A stretch of 64,000 nt of DNA from Caldimonas caldifontis (lineage in GTDB: Bacteria; Pseudomonadota; Gammaproteobacteria; Burkholderiales; Burkholderiaceae_C). A program made the translations under genes and the position numbers. Shown here in pieces: positions 1,211 to 49,970 of this stretch. The first letter of the stretch is position 1. Every line of letters begins with the position of its first letter. The DNA is taken from positions 1 to 64,000 of the forward strand of contig NZ_PSNX01000011.1 of NCBI RefSeq assembly GCF_002930615.1. Reading direction: 5' to 3'. Under the pieces are notes generated by a model that was not told the origin of the DNA, searched no databases, and was given only the letters and a program-made list of their open reading frames with translations.

Positions 1211-2875
1211 TCAGGCCGCGCTCCAGCCGGCTTCGTCCTGGCGCACGCGACCTTCGGTCTGCAGCTTGATCAGATGCGCCAGCAGCGATCGCTCGGCCAT
1301 GGCGTACAGGGCCGAGGGAATGTCGGTGTAGACACGCTCGCGCAGCCGGGCCACGGACGCCGGGCCCAGGGCCAGAGTCGCCTCCAGCACCAGCGCCTCC
1401 CGGCGCAGGCGGTGAGCGACGAGCGCTTCGATCACCTTCGCCGGCTGGGCCATCAGGAAGCCATGACCGGGCGCAAGCCATTCGAGGCCTTCGTCGAGCA
1501 AGCCCCGCAGCGAGGCGAGGTAGGCCGCCATGTCGCCGTCCGGCGGGTTGATGACCACCGTGGAGGACTGCATCACGTGGTCGCCGGTGAACAGCAGTTT
1601 TTCTTCCTCCAGCAGGAAGCACAGGTGGTTGGACGCGTGACCCGGCGTGTGCAGCACGCGCAGGTGCGTCTCGGAGGAGCACACCAGACGTTCGCCATGC
1701 TGCAGCTCCCGGTCCAGCGCCAGCCGGGGGTCTTGCCCCTGTGGATGGGCAGGCCAGCGGCCCCATACCGGCGCCCCGGTGGCCGCACTCAAGGCCTGCG
1801 ACGCGGGGGAATGGTCCTTGTGGCTGTGGGTGAGCACGATGGCCTCGATGGGGCCAGGGGCTGCGGCGAGCACGGCTCGCACGTGTTCCTCGTCGTCAGG
1901 CCCGGGGTCGATGACGGTCCATCGGTTGGCGGCTCCACCGCCCACGAGGTAGGTGTTGGTGCCCGGACCGGTCATCAGGCTGCCGTTGGGGGCGGTCACG
2001 CGGATCACGCGTTCGGACAGGCGCACCGGCACACCGGGAACGAGCGCATAGGACACGTGCCCGTGACCCAGGGGGTCGAGACGGCCGATCTCGGCCCAGG
2101 CCGGCTCCTCGGGCATCACCGGACGCTCCCCCTCGGGGCCTTGGCCCACCCGAGGCATCACCAGGGCCACCTGCCGCGGGGCACGGGCCCAGTCCATCAG
2201 GGCTTCGCACGTTTGGAAGCGGGCCAGCAGTTCCAGCGTCACCCGCGTGGGGGTCATCAGCTTGAAGTCTGTGCCACGCGAAAGAGCTTCCGCAGGACGC
2301 AGCCAGGCGTGCTCCACGGTCTCGTGTTCATCGTGCACGGCGGCTTGGCCCGCGGGGGCCACCGCCACGAAGAAGCGGGTGTCAAAGCGCTTGGCGCGGC
2401 CCAGGGGGGTGAGCCAATGGCTCAGATAGGCCAGCCGATCGAGCCGCAAGGTCCAGCCCGCTCGCGTGCACAGGTCAGCCCAGGCGAGTTCGCCGCAGTG
2501 GACCTGCCGCCGCCAGTGCATGGCCGTGTGCGCGTCGGGCAGGGGACCGTCGGCAAAGAGAAGCCCACACTCCTCGAAACACTCACGCACGGCACAGACA
2601 AAGTAGTCGCGAGCCCCTTCGGTCACACCCAGGCGCGCATTCGCCTGCGTGTCGGACAGGCCGGAGCTGCACATGGCGGCCTCGCGATCACCCGCATCGA
2701 CCAGCCCGCCAGGAAACACCCAGGCGCCGCTGTTGTGATCTCCGCGCTCGGCACGTCGCAGCAGCAGCACTTCCAGGCCCTCCGGCCCTGTGATGGCATC
2801 GCGCACCACCACAAGGGTGGCCGCAGGGCGGGGTGGACGGGGAGATGGGGATGAGGGTGCGGGGCGATCGGTCAT
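1211..2875 (-). CDS. Fusion of a Nudix hydrolase domain and a metallo-beta-lactamase fold hydrolase
   Basis: Predicted 554-residue two-domain enzyme. The N-terminal half (about 15-220) is Nudix: PGG at 55-57 and REcFEEcGLL at 97-106. The Nudix box is interrupted by about 24 extra residues, as in the NUDT19-like acyl-CoA/CoA diphosphatases. The C-terminal half (about 290-550) is an MBL domain of the LACTB2 type with TGPGTNTYLVG, the metal motif THSHKDH (349-355), HTPGH and FTGDH. The start at 2875 (MTDRPAP) is preferred because the upstream extension looks non-coding; the ATG at 2884 is the alternative. It follows the VWA gene by 94 bases on the same strand. The dual activity is inferred. Confidence 0.85.
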   Translation of the reverse strand: MTDRPAPSSPSPRPPRPAATLVVVRDAITGPEGLEVLLLRRAERGDHNSGAWVFPGGLVDAGDREAAMCSSGLSDTQANARLGVTEGARDYFVCAVRECFEECGLLFADGPLPDAHTAMHWRRQVHCGELAWADLCTRAGWTLRLDRLAYLSHWLTPLGRAKRFDTRFFVAVAPAGQAAVHDEHETVEHAWLRPAEALSRGTDFKLMTPTRVTLELLARFQTCEALMDWARAPRQVALVMPRVGQGPEGERPVMPEEPAWAEIGRLDPLGHGHVSYALVPGVPVRLSERVIRVTAPNGSLMTGPGTNTYLVGGGAANRWTVIDPGPDDEEHVRAVLAAAPGPIEAIVLTHSHKDHSPASQALSAATGAPVWGRWPAHPQGQDPRLALDRELQHGERLVCSSETHLRVLHTPGHASNHLCFLLEEEKLLFTGDHVMQSSTVVINPPDGDMAAYLASLRGLLDEGLEWLAPGHGFLMAQPAKVIEALVAHRLRREALVLEATLALGPASVARLRERVYTDIPSALYAMAERSLLAHLIKLQTEGRVRQDEAGWSAA

Positions 2876-2969
2876 GGGTGGCATCCGGGGCTCATGGTGC
2901 CTGCGCCCTGCAAGGGCGGCAGTCACCTTGGAGACCGATGATGCCCCATCCATGCCGCAGGTACGGTCC

Positions 2970-4022
2970 CTACAGCACCCGATGGAACCAGAAGACCGAC
3001 AGCCCGGCCGCCAGCAGCATCAGCGCCGCCGCAGCGGCAGCCAGCAGGGCGGTCACCTCGATCTCGCGGGTTTCCAACGCCAGCTTGGAGTGCAGCCCCT
3101 GGTAGATCTTCTTCAGATCCGGCGCCGTGCCGGCGTAGAAATACTCTCCCCCGGTGAGGTTGGCAATGCCCCGCAGCGACTCCTCGTCGAGGCGCACCCG
3201 CATCGACCAGCCGTCTCCCACGAGGATTTCTCCGTTTTCGGTACCCACGCCGATGGTGTAGACCTTCACGCCCCGTTCGGCCGCCATGCGCGCGGCCTCC
3301 ATGGGGTTGGGGCCGGTGGTGGTCTGACCATCGGTGAGCAGGATGATGGCCGCGGACGCATAGGAGCCCGGCTCCACCGGGGGCGGCGGCGGTTTGCCCC
3401 CCGCGCTGCGCTGGTCGAGCGATCGACCCAGTCGGCTGTCTTCCGAGCCGGGGCGGGGGTTGCTGCCCCGCAGGTCGAACTCCAGATCAGGGAAGATGGC
3501 CTGCAACGAGACCAGGATGCCACTGCCGACCGCCGTGGCACGCTGGAAGTTGAAGCGGTCGATGGCGGCCAGCACGTCTTCCTTGCTGTGCGTGGGCGGC
3601 TGCGTGAGCAGTGCCGTGCCCGCAAAGGTGACCACGCCGATGCGCGTGCCGCTGTCCTGCAGGGCCACGAACTCGCGTGCCGCCGCCTGGGCCGCCGCCA
3701 TGCGGCTGGGCTCGACGTCGGTGGCCCGCATGCTGCCGGACACATCCATCGCCAGGATCACCATGCGCTGCTGCGACGGCAGTGTCACGCTGGCCGTGGG
3801 CCGGGCGATCGCCACCAGCAGGGCCACCAGGGCCAGCAGCATCAGCGCGGGCGGCACATGGCGACGCCAGCCCGGTCCCTTGACCAGGGCTTCGCGCACC
3901 AGCGACAGGCCCGAGTACCGCAGCGCCATGCGCCGGCGTCGGCGCAAGAGCCACCAGTACGCCAGCACGCTCAGGGGCACCAGCACCAGCAGCCACAACA
4001 ATTCCGGCCAGATGAATGCCAT
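2970..4022 (-). CDS. VWA-domain membrane protein (BatA type)
   Basis: A 350-residue membrane-anchored von Willebrand factor A protein, last gene of the protease-MoxR-DUF58-VWA operon. It has a hydrophobic N-terminus (about 3-25), a second helix (about 58-73), a VWA domain with an intact MIDAS (DxSxS at 93-97, later a conserved Thr and Asp), and a C-terminal helix (about 325-348). This arrangement matches BatA-type partners of MoxR ATPases, which are thought to act in assembly or stress tolerance at the membrane. The start is the ATG at 4022, with GGGAGA before it; a GTG 18 bases upstream is less likely. A short Gly/Pro-rich insert lies near residues 205-220. Confidence 0.85.
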   Translation of the reverse strand: MAFIWPELLWLLVLVPLSVLAYWWLLRRRRRMALRYSGLSLVREALVKGPGWRRHVPPALMLLALVALLVAIARPTASVTLPSQQRMVILAMDVSGSMRATDVEPSRMAAAQAAAREFVALQDSGTRIGVVTFAGTALLTQPPTHSKEDVLAAIDRFNFQRATAVGSGILVSLQAIFPDLEFDLRGSNPRPGSEDSRLGRSLDQRSAGGKPPPPPVEPGSYASAAIILLTDGQTTTGPNPMEAARMAAERGVKVYTIGVGTENGEILVGDGWSMRVRLDEESLRGIANLTGGEYFYAGTAPDLKKIYQGLHSKLALETREIEVTALLAAAAAALMLLAAGLSVFWFHRVL

Positions 4023-40122: not shown

Positions 40123-40758
40123 TCACGACGCGGGACCCGCGCGCGGCGCGGGTGCGGCCCCGGCAGCCGAGGCATCCTGGGGACGCTTGAGGGCCACACG
40201 CATGGAGAACTCGTACAGTCGGCGCTGGCCGGCATCCGCGCGTTCGGCCCTGCGCCCATCGGCACGAACGTTGGCCACCTTGATCTCGATGAGCTCCGGC
40301 CGCTCCAGCCAGGGCGAGTTGTAGGCCGTGTTGCGCAGCATCTCGGACACGCGCTCGTTGGTCTGCGCAACCCCGGCCACGGACACCATCTGCCCGTCCT
40401 GGCGGATGGAAGTCAGATAGACACCTTCGGGCGTCTGCCGGACCAGCTCGTTGAGCAGGTGCACCGGCATGTTGCGATCGGTCTGGAGATCCTCCACGGC
40501 CTTCTGCCTGGCCTTCAGGGCATCGATCTCGGCGCGCAGGTTGGCGATGTCCTTGATCTGCTCATCCAGCTTGGCGATCTCGCTCTGCAGAAAGGCATTG
40601 CGCTCCTGCTGGGTGGAGATCATCTGCTGCAGCACGGCGTACCACAGGACCACAACCAAGCCGCCCGCAAGGGCCGAGAAGCCCAGGACGGCAAAGAAGG
40701 CCTGCTTGCGGCGGCGACGCTTTTCTTCCCGGTGGGGAAGCAGGTTGATGAGGATCAT
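40123..40758 (-). CDS. pilN: Type IV pilus assembly protein PilN
   Basis: A 211-residue bitopic membrane protein. The N-terminus MILINLLPHREEKRRRRK contains the INLLP motif that binds PilM. A membrane helix (about 22-44), a coiled coil (about 48-95) and a ferredoxin-like domain follow. The Ala/Pro-rich C-terminal tail is unremarkable. It overlaps pilM by 4 bases. Confidence 0.95.
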   Translation of the reverse strand: MILINLLPHREEKRRRRKQAFFAVLGFSALAGGLVVVLWYAVLQQMISTQQERNAFLQSEIAKLDEQIKDIANLRAEIDALKARQKAVEDLQTDRNMPVHLLNELVRQTPEGVYLTSIRQDGQMVSVAGVAQTNERVSEMLRNTAYNSPWLERPELIEIKVANVRADGRRAERADAGQRRLYEFSMRVALKRPQDASAAGAAPAPRAGPAS

Positions 40759-41834
40759 TGCAGGAACCTCCGCATCGCCAGGCCGCAGGCCGTCAGGTAG
40801 GACGGCGCCTCGCGACGCAGCTTGCTTTCACGCACGCTGGAACCCAGCTTCATGCCGTCGAAGGGGTTGACGATCATCGAGGCAAAGCCCGTCTGCTCGG
40901 TGACCCGCTCTTTCAGACCGGGCAGCGCTGCACTCCCGCCCGCCAGCATCACGTAGTGCACCTTGTGATGGGGTGTGCTGGTGAAGAAATACTGCAGCGC
41001 GCGGCCGACTTCCTGGGCCATGCTGTCCACGAAGGGGTTGAGGATGGACTGTTCGTAGTCCTCGGGCAGGTCGCCCGCCAGCTTTTTCTGCTCGGCCTCC
41101 TCGAACGAGAAACCATACTGACGGGAGATCAGCTGGGTCAGCTGGCTGCCACCGAAGGCCTGGTCGCGGTCGTAGAGCAGTTCGTCGTCGCGCAGCACCT
41201 TGAGGCTGGTGGTCTCGGCCCCGATCTCGAACAGCGCCACGAGCGAATCGCGCCCCTCATTGGGCAGCGCCTGGATCAGGCGCCCGACCGCCAGCCGGGA
41301 GGCGTGCGATTCGATGTCCAGCACGAGCGGCTTCAGGCCGGCGGCCTCGGCCAGGCCCTGGCGGTCCTGGACGCGGTCCTTGCGGGAGGCCGCAATCAGC
41401 ACCTCCACATCGCCGGCCGACGTGGGGCTCGGGCCAACCACGCAGAAGTCGAGGCTGACTTCATCAAGGGAAAAGGGGATGTACTGGTTGGCCTCGGACT
41501 CGACCTGCATCTCGAGTTCTTCCTCGCGCAGGCCGGCCGGCAGCATGATCTTCTTGGTGATCACCGCCGACTGAGGCATGGCCATGGCCACATGCTTGGT
41601 GCGGGTGCCGCTTTTCACCACGACACGCCGCACGGCATCGGCCACTTCGTCGAACTTCTCGATCTGGCCGTCCGCGATCCAGCCCTTCTCGAAGCTTTCC
41701 GTTGCAAAACGCTCGACGATGTACTCGCCGGAAGCACTTTGGCCCAGCTCAACCAGCTTCACGCTCGACGAGCTGATGTCCAGCCCGACAAGCGGCGGAT
41801 GCTTGCGGCCCAACAAAACATCAAGAAGGCTCAC
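40755..41834 (-). CDS. pilM: Type IV pilus assembly protein PilM
   Basis: A 359-residue actin-like cytoplasmic ATPase that binds the PilN N-terminus. Actin-fold features are GLDISSSSVKLVEL (phosphate loop 1), FEIGAETTSLKVL (phosphate loop 2) and MLAGGSAALPGL (adenosine motif). The GTG at 41834 is chosen because VSLLDVLLGRKHPPL matches PilM N-termini and GGGGGA lies upstream. It is the first gene of pilMNOPQ, divergent from mrcA across 263 bases (41835-42097), where no strong minus-strand promoter is obvious. Confidence 0.95.
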   Translation of the reverse strand: MSLLDVLLGRKHPPLVGLDISSSSVKLVELGQSASGEYIVERFATESFEKGWIADGQIEKFDEVADAVRRVVVKSGTRTKHVAMAMPQSAVITKKIMLPAGLREEELEMQVESEANQYIPFSLDEVSLDFCVVGPSPTSAGDVEVLIAASRKDRVQDRQGLAEAAGLKPLVLDIESHASRLAVGRLIQALPNEGRDSLVALFEIGAETTSLKVLRDDELLYDRDQAFGGSQLTQLISRQYGFSFEEAEQKKLAGDLPEDYEQSILNPFVDSMAQEVGRALQYFFTSTPHHKVHYVMLAGGSAALPGLKERVTEQTGFASMIVNPFDGMKLGSSVRESKLRREAPSYLTACGLAMRRFLQ

Positions 41835-46301: not shown

Positions 46302-47489
46302 TCAGGGCACCTGCTTAAGGATGGCCAGCCCCTTGAGGTACTCGCCCTCGGGGAAGCAGATCGTCATCGGGTGGTCGGGCGCGGCCTCCAAGCGTGACAG
46401 GATCATCCCATCCACCCCGGCATCCAGGCCGGCGCCCGCCACGATCTTGTGAAAGAGTTCGGCACCGATGCCACCCGAACACGAGAAGGTCAGCAGCAGC
46501 CCCCCGGGAGCCAGCAGCTTGAAGGCCAGGCGGTTGATGTCCTTGTAGGCCCGGGAGGCCCGCTCGGCGTGGGCGGCGGTCGGGGCGAATTTCGGCGGAT
46601 CGAGCACGATGGCGTCGAAGGAGCGGCCTTCCTTGATCAGACGGCGCAAGGTCTCGTTCACGTCGGCATCGAGGGCCTGGTGGCGCGCGGCGTCGAAGCC
46701 GTTGAGCCGCACATGCGCGTCGGCCCGGGCCAGGGCCGGCCCGGAGGAATCCACGCTCACCACCTCCTCGGCCCCGCCGGCCAGCGCCGCCACGCTGAAG
46801 CCGCCGGTGTAGCTGTAGCAGTTGAGCACTCGCCGGCAGCCGAAGTGCTGCACCCACTGAGCGAAGCGCCCGCGGTTGTCGCGCTGGTCGAGGTAGTAGC
46901 CGGTCTTGTGGCCCTCGGCCACGTCCAGCGTGAGCTGCCAGCCGTTCTCGTGGATGCGCACTTCGGTGGGCCCCTCGCCTCGTAGCCAGCCGCTGGCGGG
47001 CGCCAGACCTTCGAGGCTGCGCACGCCGGAGTCCGACCGTTCGTAGAGGCGCTGCACGCCGGTCGCCGCGAGCAACTGGTCGGCGATCACCGCCTTCCAG
47101 CGTTCGGTGCCCGCCGAGAGGAACTGGGCGCTGAGCGTGTCGCCATAGCGGTCGACGATAAGCCCGGGCAGGCCGTCGGCCTCGCCATGGATCAGCCGCA
47201 CGGCGTCGCTGTTGAGCGGCAGGCGATCGCGCAACGCCAGCGCGCGGGCAATGCGACGCGAGAAGAAGTCGGCGTCGATGCGCTCGTTCTCGTCGAAGCT
47301 CCACGCACGCACCCGGATCATGGAGGTGGGGCTGAACGCGGCCCAGGCCAGGAAACGGCCATCGTGAGCCTCGACACGCACGGTCTCGCCGGCGTCGGCC
47401 TTGCCGCGGGCGATGGAGCCCTGGAAGACCCAGGGATGTTGGCGCAGCAGGGAGCGCTCCTTGCCTTCGCGCAGGGTGATGACTTTCAT
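46302..47489 (-). CDS. rlmI: 23S rRNA m5C1962 methyltransferase, RlmI family
   Basis: A 395-residue SAM-dependent methyltransferase with an N-terminal PUA domain (about 1-70), an EEHEE-like middle region, and a Rossmann methyltransferase domain. Visible motifs are YYLDQRDNRGRF, NCYSYTGGFSVAAL (SAM motif I), DPPKFAPT (motif IV) and TFSCSGGI with the catalytic Cys (motif VI). Length is normal. It follows the end of the original xerC frame by 15 bases, in an operon led by the lpxL-like genes. Confidence 0.92.
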   Translation of the reverse strand: MKVITLREGKERSLLRQHPWVFQGSIARGKADAGETVRVEAHDGRFLAWAAFSPTSMIRVRAWSFDENERIDADFFSRRIARALALRDRLPLNSDAVRLIHGEADGLPGLIVDRYGDTLSAQFLSAGTERWKAVIADQLLAATGVQRLYERSDSGVRSLEGLAPASGWLRGEGPTEVRIHENGWQLTLDVAEGHKTGYYLDQRDNRGRFAQWVQHFGCRRVLNCYSYTGGFSVAALAGGAEEVVSVDSSGPALARADAHVRLNGFDAARHQALDADVNETLRRLIKEGRSFDAIVLDPPKFAPTAAHAERASRAYKDINRLAFKLLAPGGLLLTFSCSGGIGAELFHKIVAGAGLDAGVDGMILSRLEAAPDHPMTICFPEGEYLKGLAILKQVP

Positions 47490-47504: not shown

Positions 47505-48416
47505 TCAGGGCTTGCGCCTGGCCCGCGGATGAGCCTTGTCATAGACCCGGGCCAGGTGCTGGAAATCGAGCTGGGTGTAGATCTACAGCAGCTCCTGCAC
47601 CGCACGCAGGTCGCCGCTGGACTGCAGCAGGTGCGAGGCGAAGGAGTGGCGCAGCATGTGCGGGTGCACCTGGGTGGGCAGCCCGGCCTGCAGGGCGCGC
47701 CGCGACAGGCGCAGGCGCAGCTGCTGGGGGGAAAGCCGCGCCCCGCGCTCGCTCAGCAGCAGGGGGGCGTCATCGGCTCGCACGTAGCGAGGCCGATGGG
47801 CGAGCCAGGCCACGAGGGCCTCGCGTGCCGCAGCACCGATCGGCACGCTGCGCCGCTTGCCGCCCTTGCCCAGCACATGCACCTCGGCCTCGGCCAGATC
47901 GACCCAGCCTCGGGAGGCGGCGGTGCTGCGCACGTCCAGCCCCACCAGCTCGCTGATGCGCAAACCGCAGCCGTAGAGCAACTCGACGATGCAGCGGTCG
48001 CGTGCGGCCAGGGCGGGATCCTCGTCCTGTACCGGGGTGTGTTCAGCCAGCGCCACGGAATGGTCCACCGACAGCGCCTTGGGCAGCGGTTTGGGCGCCT
48101 TGGGGGCCTTCAGGCCCTCGACGGGGTTGTGGGCGATGCCCCCCTGGCGCCCCCACCAGCGATAGCAGCCGCGCCAGGCGCTCAGCGTGCGGGCCAGGCT
48201 GCGCCCGGACAGGCCCTGGGCGTGCAGCCGGCCCAGCCAGCGGCGCACGTGGTGGGGCTGCACCGCATCCAGCGGCACGCCGGCTTCGACGGCCAGACGC
48301 TGCAGTTGGGCCAGGTCGCGGGCATAGGCCGTGAGCGTGAGTTCGGCCATGCGTCGCTCGACGCGCAGGTGCTCGAGGTAACGCTCGATCTGCGGATCGA
48401 TGCCGTCGCCGTCCAT
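47505..48416 (-). pseudogene. xerC: Tyrosine recombinase XerC, disrupted near the C-terminus
   Basis: XerC acts with XerD at dif to resolve chromosome dimers. The N-terminal SAM-like domain and catalytic residues R153, K184, H253 and R256 are intact. After AVQELL (277) the frame meets TAG at 47583-47585, then continues in the same frame with IYTQLDFQHLARVYDKAHP to a normal stop at 47505. XerC normally has GHANISTTQ between ELL and IYT, so about nine codons have been replaced by one stop. The second catalytic His (in GH) is lost and the nucleophile Tyr (in IYT) is untranslated. The junction carries a 10-base palindrome, GTAGATCTAC. It could be a true pseudogene, a local deletion in this strain, or an assembly error. 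It lies 10 bases after DUF484. Confidence 0.85.
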
Positions 48417-48426
48417 GGCCGCGTGC

Positions 48427-49116
48427 TCAGCCCTCGGGCAGCAGGCGCGTCAGGCCGGCGCTGGCCAGATCGCCCACGCGCATCAGGAACTCGGTGCCCA
48501 TGTCGGCGGTGTAGCGGGTCGGATCAGGAGACCCCAGGACCAGCAGACCGAAGGCCGGAGCCCCCACGGCATGACGCAGCGGAATCATCGCCACCGAGGC
48601 CACGGTCTCTGGATCGTCCAGCCAGCGTACTGCCTCGAAGCCCGCATTGGCGCCGCAGTAGGGTTGGGTGAGGCTGGAGGCGAGTGCCCGCGTGTCCTCG
48701 CTCGCGCCCTGGGCGAAGGCGTGGTCGGCATAGGCACCCACGACGCCCCAGACGCGGATACCCGCCTGGGGAATCAGGAACTGGGCCTTGAGTTCATGCA
48801 CCAGGGTGCCGGGCAGGTCGGCAGGGTCGGCCGTGAGCATCAGCGCACGCGTCCAGCGGTGCAGCTTGTCGGCGATGGCCATGTTCTCCTGGCCATGGCG
48901 GATCATCTCCATGAGACGCATCTCCAGGCCGCGGATCTTCTCGCGCAGCATCTCCATCTGGCGCTCCTGCAGCGAGACGGCGCGATGGCCATGCGGGCTG
49001 GTGAGCTGGATGCTGGCCAGCAGCTCGGCATGCCGCTCGAAGAAACCGGGCGTGTTGGCGAGGAAGCGGGCGATGTCATCCTCGGTGATGCCCTGGATGC
49101 CGGAAGAGGTGCTCAC
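48427..49116 (-). CDS. DUF484 family protein
   Basis: A 229-residue GAF-like protein of the DUF484 family, normally encoded between dapF and xerC. It has an N-terminal helical segment ([20 protein letters not shown]), a coiled coil (about 50-85) and a GAF-like domain (about 95-225). Function is unestablished. It overlaps dapF by 4 bases. Confidence 0.9.
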
Positions 49117-49970
49117 AGTTCGATTTCTCCTTCAAAGACGGTCTGCGCCGGGCCGGTCATGAACACATGCGCGTCCCCGCCCGCCCATTCGATGCGCAGC
49201 CGGCCGCCTCGCGTGTCGACCTCGACCGCCGGATCGAGCAGCCCCTGGCGAATGCCGGCCACGACAGCCGCGCAGGCGCCGGTACCACAGGCCAGGGTTT
49301 CACCCGCATCGCGCTCGTACACGCGCAGCTTCACATGGCCGCGGTCGATGATCTGCAGGAAGCCGGCGTTGACCTTGCGGGGAAAGCGCGGGTGCTGCTC
49401 GATGCGCGGGCCCCACTGCGCCACCGGGGCCTGGTCCACATCGTCGACGAGCAGGACCGCATGCGGGTTGCCCATGGACAGCACGGCAACCTCCACGCGC
49501 GCATCGCCCAGATCCAGGGGCCACAGCGGGAAGCCCGCCCCCACCCGCCGGGGCGTGAGATCCGAGGCATCGAACGGGACGCGGTCGAGCTCGAAGATCG
49601 GCGCGTTCATGTCCACCGTCACGCGACCATCGGCTTGCGCCTGCAGCACGAGGCGGTTGTTGACGGTCTCCACCCGCAAGGGATTGCGGTCGCTCAGACC
49701 CTTCTCGTGCACGAAGCGCACGAAGCAGCGCGCACCATTGCCGCAATGCTCGACCTCCTCGCCCGAGGCGCCGTTGAAGATGCGGTAGCGGAAGTCGGCA
49801 TCGGCCGAGGAGGCGCGCTCGACCACGAGGATCTGGTCGGCTCCCACGCCGAAGCGGCGGTCGCCCAGGCGCTGCAACTGCGCCACCGACAGCGACAGCG
49901 GCGTGGTGGTGGCATCAATGACGACGAAGTCATTGCCCGCCCCCTGCATTTTGGTGAAGCGCAGTCTCAT
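49113..49970 (-). CDS. dapF: Diaminopimelate epimerase
   Basis: A 285-residue cofactor-independent epimerase converting LL- to meso-diaminopimelate for lysine and murein. The two catalytic Cys residues lie in EHCGNGARC (near 77-85) and LACGTGACA (near 222-230). [10 protein letters not shown] at the N-terminus is typical. It starts 37 bases after the lpxL-like gene and overlaps DUF484. Confidence 0.96.

Follow-up and report, generated by a model that had tools for sequence, protein, structure and literature searches.

A truncated xerC gene in a Caldimonas caldifontis genome that retains XerD, the FtsK gamma domain and a candidate dif site

How does a genome that keeps XerD, the gamma domain of FtsK and a candidate dif site come to encode an XerC that stops before its active-site tyrosine, and is that stop real? 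XerC belongs to the pair of enzymes by which joined sister chromosomes are parted. The window analysed here runs over 64 000 nucleotides from the start of contig C3 in a draft Caldimonas caldifontis assembly (genome G000; 3.64 Mb, 33 contigs, completeness 100). At about 47.5 kb from the start of this 174-kb contig, the lesion is not near a contig end. The xerC frame on the minus strand (48416–47505) was found to read to DLRAVQELL, then TAG at 47585–47583 and, in the same frame, on to a closing stop at 47507–47505, as an earlier note made from the sequence had described. The truncated gene (47583–48416, minus strand) comprises 277 codons followed by TAG; its product matches Pfam families PF02899 and PF00589, the N-terminal SAM-like domain being retained together with most of the catalytic domain. 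Beyond TAG lies an in-frame remnant of the xerC C-terminus (47505–47582, minus strand; IYTQLDFQHLARVYDKAHPRARRKP, then the stop), which includes the codon for the active-site tyrosine. The observation of a truncated xerC was confirmed. The best NCBIfam family of the product was TIGR02224 (XerC), whose strict cut-off of 335.15 bits, passed by just two of 14 control genomes, was reached neither by the 277-residue product (275.3 bits) nor when the tail past TAG was included (302.7 bits). The gene neighbourhood matches that of xerC in C. manganoxidans.

Catalytic positions were located by aligning the XerC of C. manganoxidans with an XerD of known structure (1a0p), on the assumption that the set R-K-H-R-[H/W]-Y can be assigned to XerC positions. 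The R, K, H and R upstream of the lesion are present in the product (CGLRISEL, GKGGKRR, HMLRHSF). The segment carrying the second catalytic histidine is missing, the codon for the nucleophilic tyrosine stands beyond TAG, and the product is also without the C-terminal end that contacts XerD. The frame and the alignment of relatives agree in this respect with the earlier claim that the second catalytic histidine and the tyrosine are lost from the encoded protein. The accessible part of one paper gives the same catalytic set for XerA (PMC5357621).

The complete XerC of C. manganoxidans, which carries GHAHITTTQIYT at the lesion site, allowed the lesion to be described codon by codon. Eight residues are missing here and a stop stands at the ninth codon, which encodes glutamine in C. 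manganoxidans; the net loss is 24 bases, in frame. This matches the initial description of about nine codons replaced by one stop. That description is equivalent to a loss of eight codons together with a TAG at the glutamine codon, and either one event or two could have given rise to it. Counted in bases, a single one would have taken the place of about 25 where the conserved GHAxxxTTQ block ends.

The junction reads GTAGATCTAC (47577–47586, no strand assigned), includes the TAG, and occupies the place that eight further codons and the glutamine codon take up in relatives. The palindrome to which the earlier note had drawn attention is present, with one copy in the window and no copy in 100 shuffles, but most of it is older than the lesion. 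Its core, AGATCT, occurs 16 times in the window against 7.6 expected, with 3 of 100 shuffles reaching 16, and is found at the same codons of C. manganoxidans xerC (CAGATCTAC). By this comparison the AGATCT at the junction is ancestral, and the palindrome adds only the G and T in front, so that it rests on two flanking bases. Because AGATCT is common in the window and present at the site in C. manganoxidans, the palindrome is weak evidence of mechanism, and it was dropped as a sign of a special one.

Among relatives, GHA....TQ followed by the tyrosine is intact in 30 of 31 scanned xerC loci, representing 29 distinct genomes (L006 and L035 are one genome). The earlier assertion that all XerC proteins carry GHANISTTQ or a close variant was thus borne out in those 30 loci; the remaining one, L034, was not matched by the pattern. 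Some match to the xerC product at E ≤ 0.001 was obtained in all 40 genomes searched, and a strong match in all nine genomes of the genus, this one included. When the family was surveyed using XerC of C. manganoxidans as query, 376 of 399 genomes matched at E ≤ 1e-50, which leaves 23 without a match at that threshold. Of these 376 matches, 150 were listed; among them only that of G000 contains an internal stop, while each of the remaining 149 reaches residue 302 or 303 out of 303.

Several genomes gave no XerC match at E ≤ 1e-50. Four of them, 95–99% complete, belong to genus g68 (G075, G190, G267 and G334), which has no genome among the matches listed, five candidates being scored per genome; divergence rather than loss of XerC may account for the absence in this genus. 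Four near-complete genomes from other genera were likewise without a match at this threshold (G082 and G336 of g75, G204 of g93, G237 of g138); other members of these genera do have one.

The genes around xerC are intact. Upstream lie an open frame that we take to be a DUF484-type gene (48427–49116, minus strand; 92% identity with its C. manganoxidans counterpart in the same place) and a presumed dapF-like gene (49113–49970, minus strand; 89% identical to its counterpart in the same place). Downstream is an open, rlmI-like frame (46302–47489, minus strand; 88% identical to C. manganoxidans); the name rlmI was taken from a 43-base match to two plasmid-collection records, the plasmid search being otherwise without matches. 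When the window was compared with contig C4 of C. manganoxidans, 47 of the 54 best matches, some of which are in antisense frames, were free of stops, while xerC and six others had one. Four of these six stops were inspected and all lay outside the real reading frame; the matches at 2225–3049 (40% identity) and 40382–40864 were left out of the inspection. No lesion comparable to that of xerC was found among the inspected window matches to C. manganoxidans, which were looked at for stops and not systematically for frameshifts.

The age of the lesion was approached through the rate of change of these genes. Residues differing between G000 and C. manganoxidans were assigned to one side or the other by sharing with an outgroup, using six outgroups. 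For xerC, 5–14 amino-acid changes fell on the side of this genome against 21–28 on the intact C. manganoxidans side, a result that partly reflects a faster-changing C. manganoxidans xerC. The corresponding counts were 3–7 against 2–7 for the DUF484-type gene, 4–7 against 5–8 for the dapF-like gene and 11–18 against 18–22 for the rlmI-like gene. Judged from these counts, the per-residue rate of change of xerC in this genome is about that of the neighbouring rlmI, and it is the C. manganoxidans xerC that is the fast one. Past TAG, 21 of 25 residues are identical to C. manganoxidans XerC. No relaxed constraint or decay was detected in the surviving xerC codons in the six-outgroup comparison. The normal rate of change and the conserved codons past TAG together indicate that normal selection acted on xerC up to very recent times, if it has ceased at all. 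As far as sequence comparison goes, this pattern fits a young mutation, perhaps arisen in culture, and fits an assembly error equally.

An assembly or consensus artefact, in which the xerC of the strain is normal and the draft is wrong at about 47575–47595, is therefore a possible explanation, albeit on balance an unlikely one. This is how a lone lesion in a gene otherwise normally constrained, codons past the stop included, could arise, and the assembly is a draft in 33 contigs; the singularity of this stop among the 150 family matches listed, and the retention of the partner XerD, FtsK-gamma and the target dif, point the same way. Homopolymer and repeat-collapse errors are the typical errors of assemblers, and a replacement of about 25 bases by one without microhomology, as seen here, is unusual among them. 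The site is, moreover, far from the ends of its 174-kb contig, the sequence around it has no second copy, and the matches elsewhere in the window that were inspected for stops held nothing comparable.

We consider it probable that the lesion is instead a recent, real, strain-level loss of function, a natural or laboratory knock-out in an otherwise ordinary two-recombinase Xer system. The intact genes of relatives, the position of the lesion deep in a contig, the lack of a substitute XerC in the assembly, and the apparently intact XerD, FtsK-gamma and dif described below argue for a knock-out. Against it stands the number of bases lost, which is divisible by three although nothing in a pseudogene would require this; the chance of it is about one in three.

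The earlier note had raised the possibility that another recombinase has taken over, and the search of the genome went against it. Tyrosine recombinases were located at four places, namely xerC, xerD, an integron integrase and a P4-type integrase. No second xerC was found in the assembly; the only other xerC-like match in the genome, 77 bases at 73%, lies inside the integron integrase. None of the scanned proteins reached the 267-bit cut-off for an XerS-type protein (best 101.5 bits; xerC product 53 bits), and no XerH-type protein was found, as judged only from the absence of a further PF00589 place in the genome. A replacement recombinase was dropped as an explanation on these results.

The gene beside the integron integrase, at L002:997–2163 (G000:C7), is presumably a dinB-like polymerase gene; the integrase itself is full-length (NF011946, 561.4 bits). 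The integrase at L004:772–2163 (G000:C28), which we take to be of the P4 kind, gave a domain match to NF007246 of 211.6 bits, below the cut-off of 434, and perhaps belongs to a genomic island.

The other components of dimer resolution appear to be in place. XerD (299 amino acids), in which GHADISTTQIYTH is intact, exceeded its cut-off of 329.6 bits with a score of 371.9, and the FtsK gamma domain scored 94.7 bits against 30.6 within an open frame of 819 codons. Three dif patterns were without a match in this genome and a fourth gave two poor matches; a core pattern then found a candidate dif on contig C31, AGTGGCGATAA TGTATA TTATGTCAAAT, as the one mismatch-free match in the genome. This match alone was used, one-mismatch matches being at the level of chance (5 and 1 here, 3 and 3 with a reversed control pattern). 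Once the core pattern had found the site, decay of dif or of its XerC arm along with xerC was dropped. The candidate of C. manganoxidans reads ATGATCGATAA TGTATA TTATGTCAAAT, and the same gene, presumably peroxiredoxin-like, adjoins both sites; the check for dif suggested at the outset thus yielded a candidate in the same gene context in the two genomes. The XerC arm ends CGATAA here and likewise in C. manganoxidans.

A candidate dif was present in all nine genomes of the genus, the dif-like one being picked by further letters in G003, G004 and G007, which had two or three mismatch-free matches each. These candidates (L057, L058, L059, L060, L061, L062, L063, L064 and L065) differ from one another in the XerC arm and in the six central bases, the centres being TGTATA, TGTGCG and TGTGTG, while all have TTATGTCAAAT or a near match to it as the XerD arm. 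The KOPS motif of E. coli is GGGNAGGG, and KOPS-like octamers of this sequence point towards the candidate dif of the present genome (11:2 before and 2:6 after it, 60 kb being taken). GC skew around the site was too weak for the terminus to be placed. The candidate resembles the Burkholderiales sites in Table 1 of PMC2731167, a paper available here in part.

These results bear on the idea that XerC has become redundant, dimers being resolved by XerD alone or by another tyrosine recombinase of the genome while xerC is discarded. The full-length integron integrase (NF011946) and the P4-type integrase supply candidates for such a role, but both are from mobile-element families and no XerS- or XerH-type protein accompanies them. 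A dif that retains its XerC arm, as in C. manganoxidans, is also at odds with redundancy, as are the lack of long-term relaxation of xerC and the co-occurrence of an xerC match and a dif candidate in nine of nine genomes of the genus. We regard redundancy as very unlikely.

If stable, the truncated XerC could contact the XerC arm of dif but would be unable to cleave DNA; it would also be without the C-terminal end by which XerC helps to switch XerD on. With neither cleavage nor this help, the recombination that FtsK activates at dif would not succeed. Chromosome dimers would then be dealt with inefficiently, with chaining, breakage and repair, a state that is survivable for bacteria. In the accessible text of PMC5052618, the Holliday junction made by XerD is resolved by XerC, and both C-termini are important for controlling the activity of the partner; the same donor–acceptor contact is described in the part of PMC7399989 at hand. 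Since the C-termini exert this control in those accounts, an XerC cut at this point should neither cleave nor switch on XerD.

An asymmetric arrangement of the Xer system, with XerC as a non-cutting DNA-binding partner, XerD as the sole enzyme to exchange strands at dif and junctions finished by other means, overlaps both with redundancy and with a truncated form kept on purpose, and we hold it to be extremely unlikely. Barely credible is the proposal that the truncated XerC has been retained for a function, binding dif beside XerD without catalysis, or that read-through of TAG completes the protein. The normal constraint over the first 277 codons is in its favour, but read-through would not restore the eight missing residues, the histidine included. 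A protein kept on purpose would, furthermore, have lost the C-terminus important for partner control (role taken from the accessible text of PMC5052618), and its form is shared neither by any other locus scanned nor by the other family matches listed.

Would a strain survive such a loss? Survival without functional XerC appears plausible. In the accessible part of PMC8609362, a ΔxerC strain of P. aeruginosa was grown and imaged, and its modest chaining is a milder defect than the filamentation or doublets that have been reported in E. coli. Some proteobacteria, a minority, naturally lack the dif/Xer system altogether: according to the available portion of PMC2731167, no dif motif was present in 12.2% of the species covered. 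The earlier view that loss of XerC would be surprising unless the protein had been replaced is softened by these two reports, as far as their accessible text goes; the loss is less surprising than supposed. Among the titles and abstracts listed for xerC/dif, for truncated or lost xerC and for Caldimonas genomes, no report of this xerC lesion was found, those listed for xerC/dif did not name Caldimonas, and an earlier report is possible; the truncated xerC of PMC6053426 is, in the part seen, the recombinase of an integrative element and a different matter.

If the probable knock-out is real, it is a natural one with XerD, FtsK-gamma and dif intact, and could serve to gauge the cost of losing dimer resolution outside laboratory strains. 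If it is not, the genome, which represents its species in a reference collection, contains an error that needs correction. Either way, there is no evidence for a new recombination system, and the case is ordinary in kind.

The nearest comparison is with the XerC of C. manganoxidans (L035 / G005:C4), which is 76–77% identical over the kept part and has the same flanking genes and the same dif context; unlike the xerC product described here, it is complete. With respect to the XerC of XerCD/dif/FtsK dimer resolution (TIGR02224), the product is alike over 277 codons, in a genome that has XerD, FtsK-gamma and dif, but it is without the second catalytic histidine, the tyrosine and the C-terminal end. 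The XerS, XerH and XerA systems work with a single recombinase, according to the accessible part of PMC5357621; no such protein was found in this genome, and its dif is an ordinary 11-6-11 two-arm site. The Y272F and ΔxerC strains of P. aeruginosa, as described in the part of PMC8609362 available, have also lost the catalytic tyrosine or the whole protein, and their cells grow; they differ in having been made in the laboratory and, for the point mutant, in having a full-length protein.
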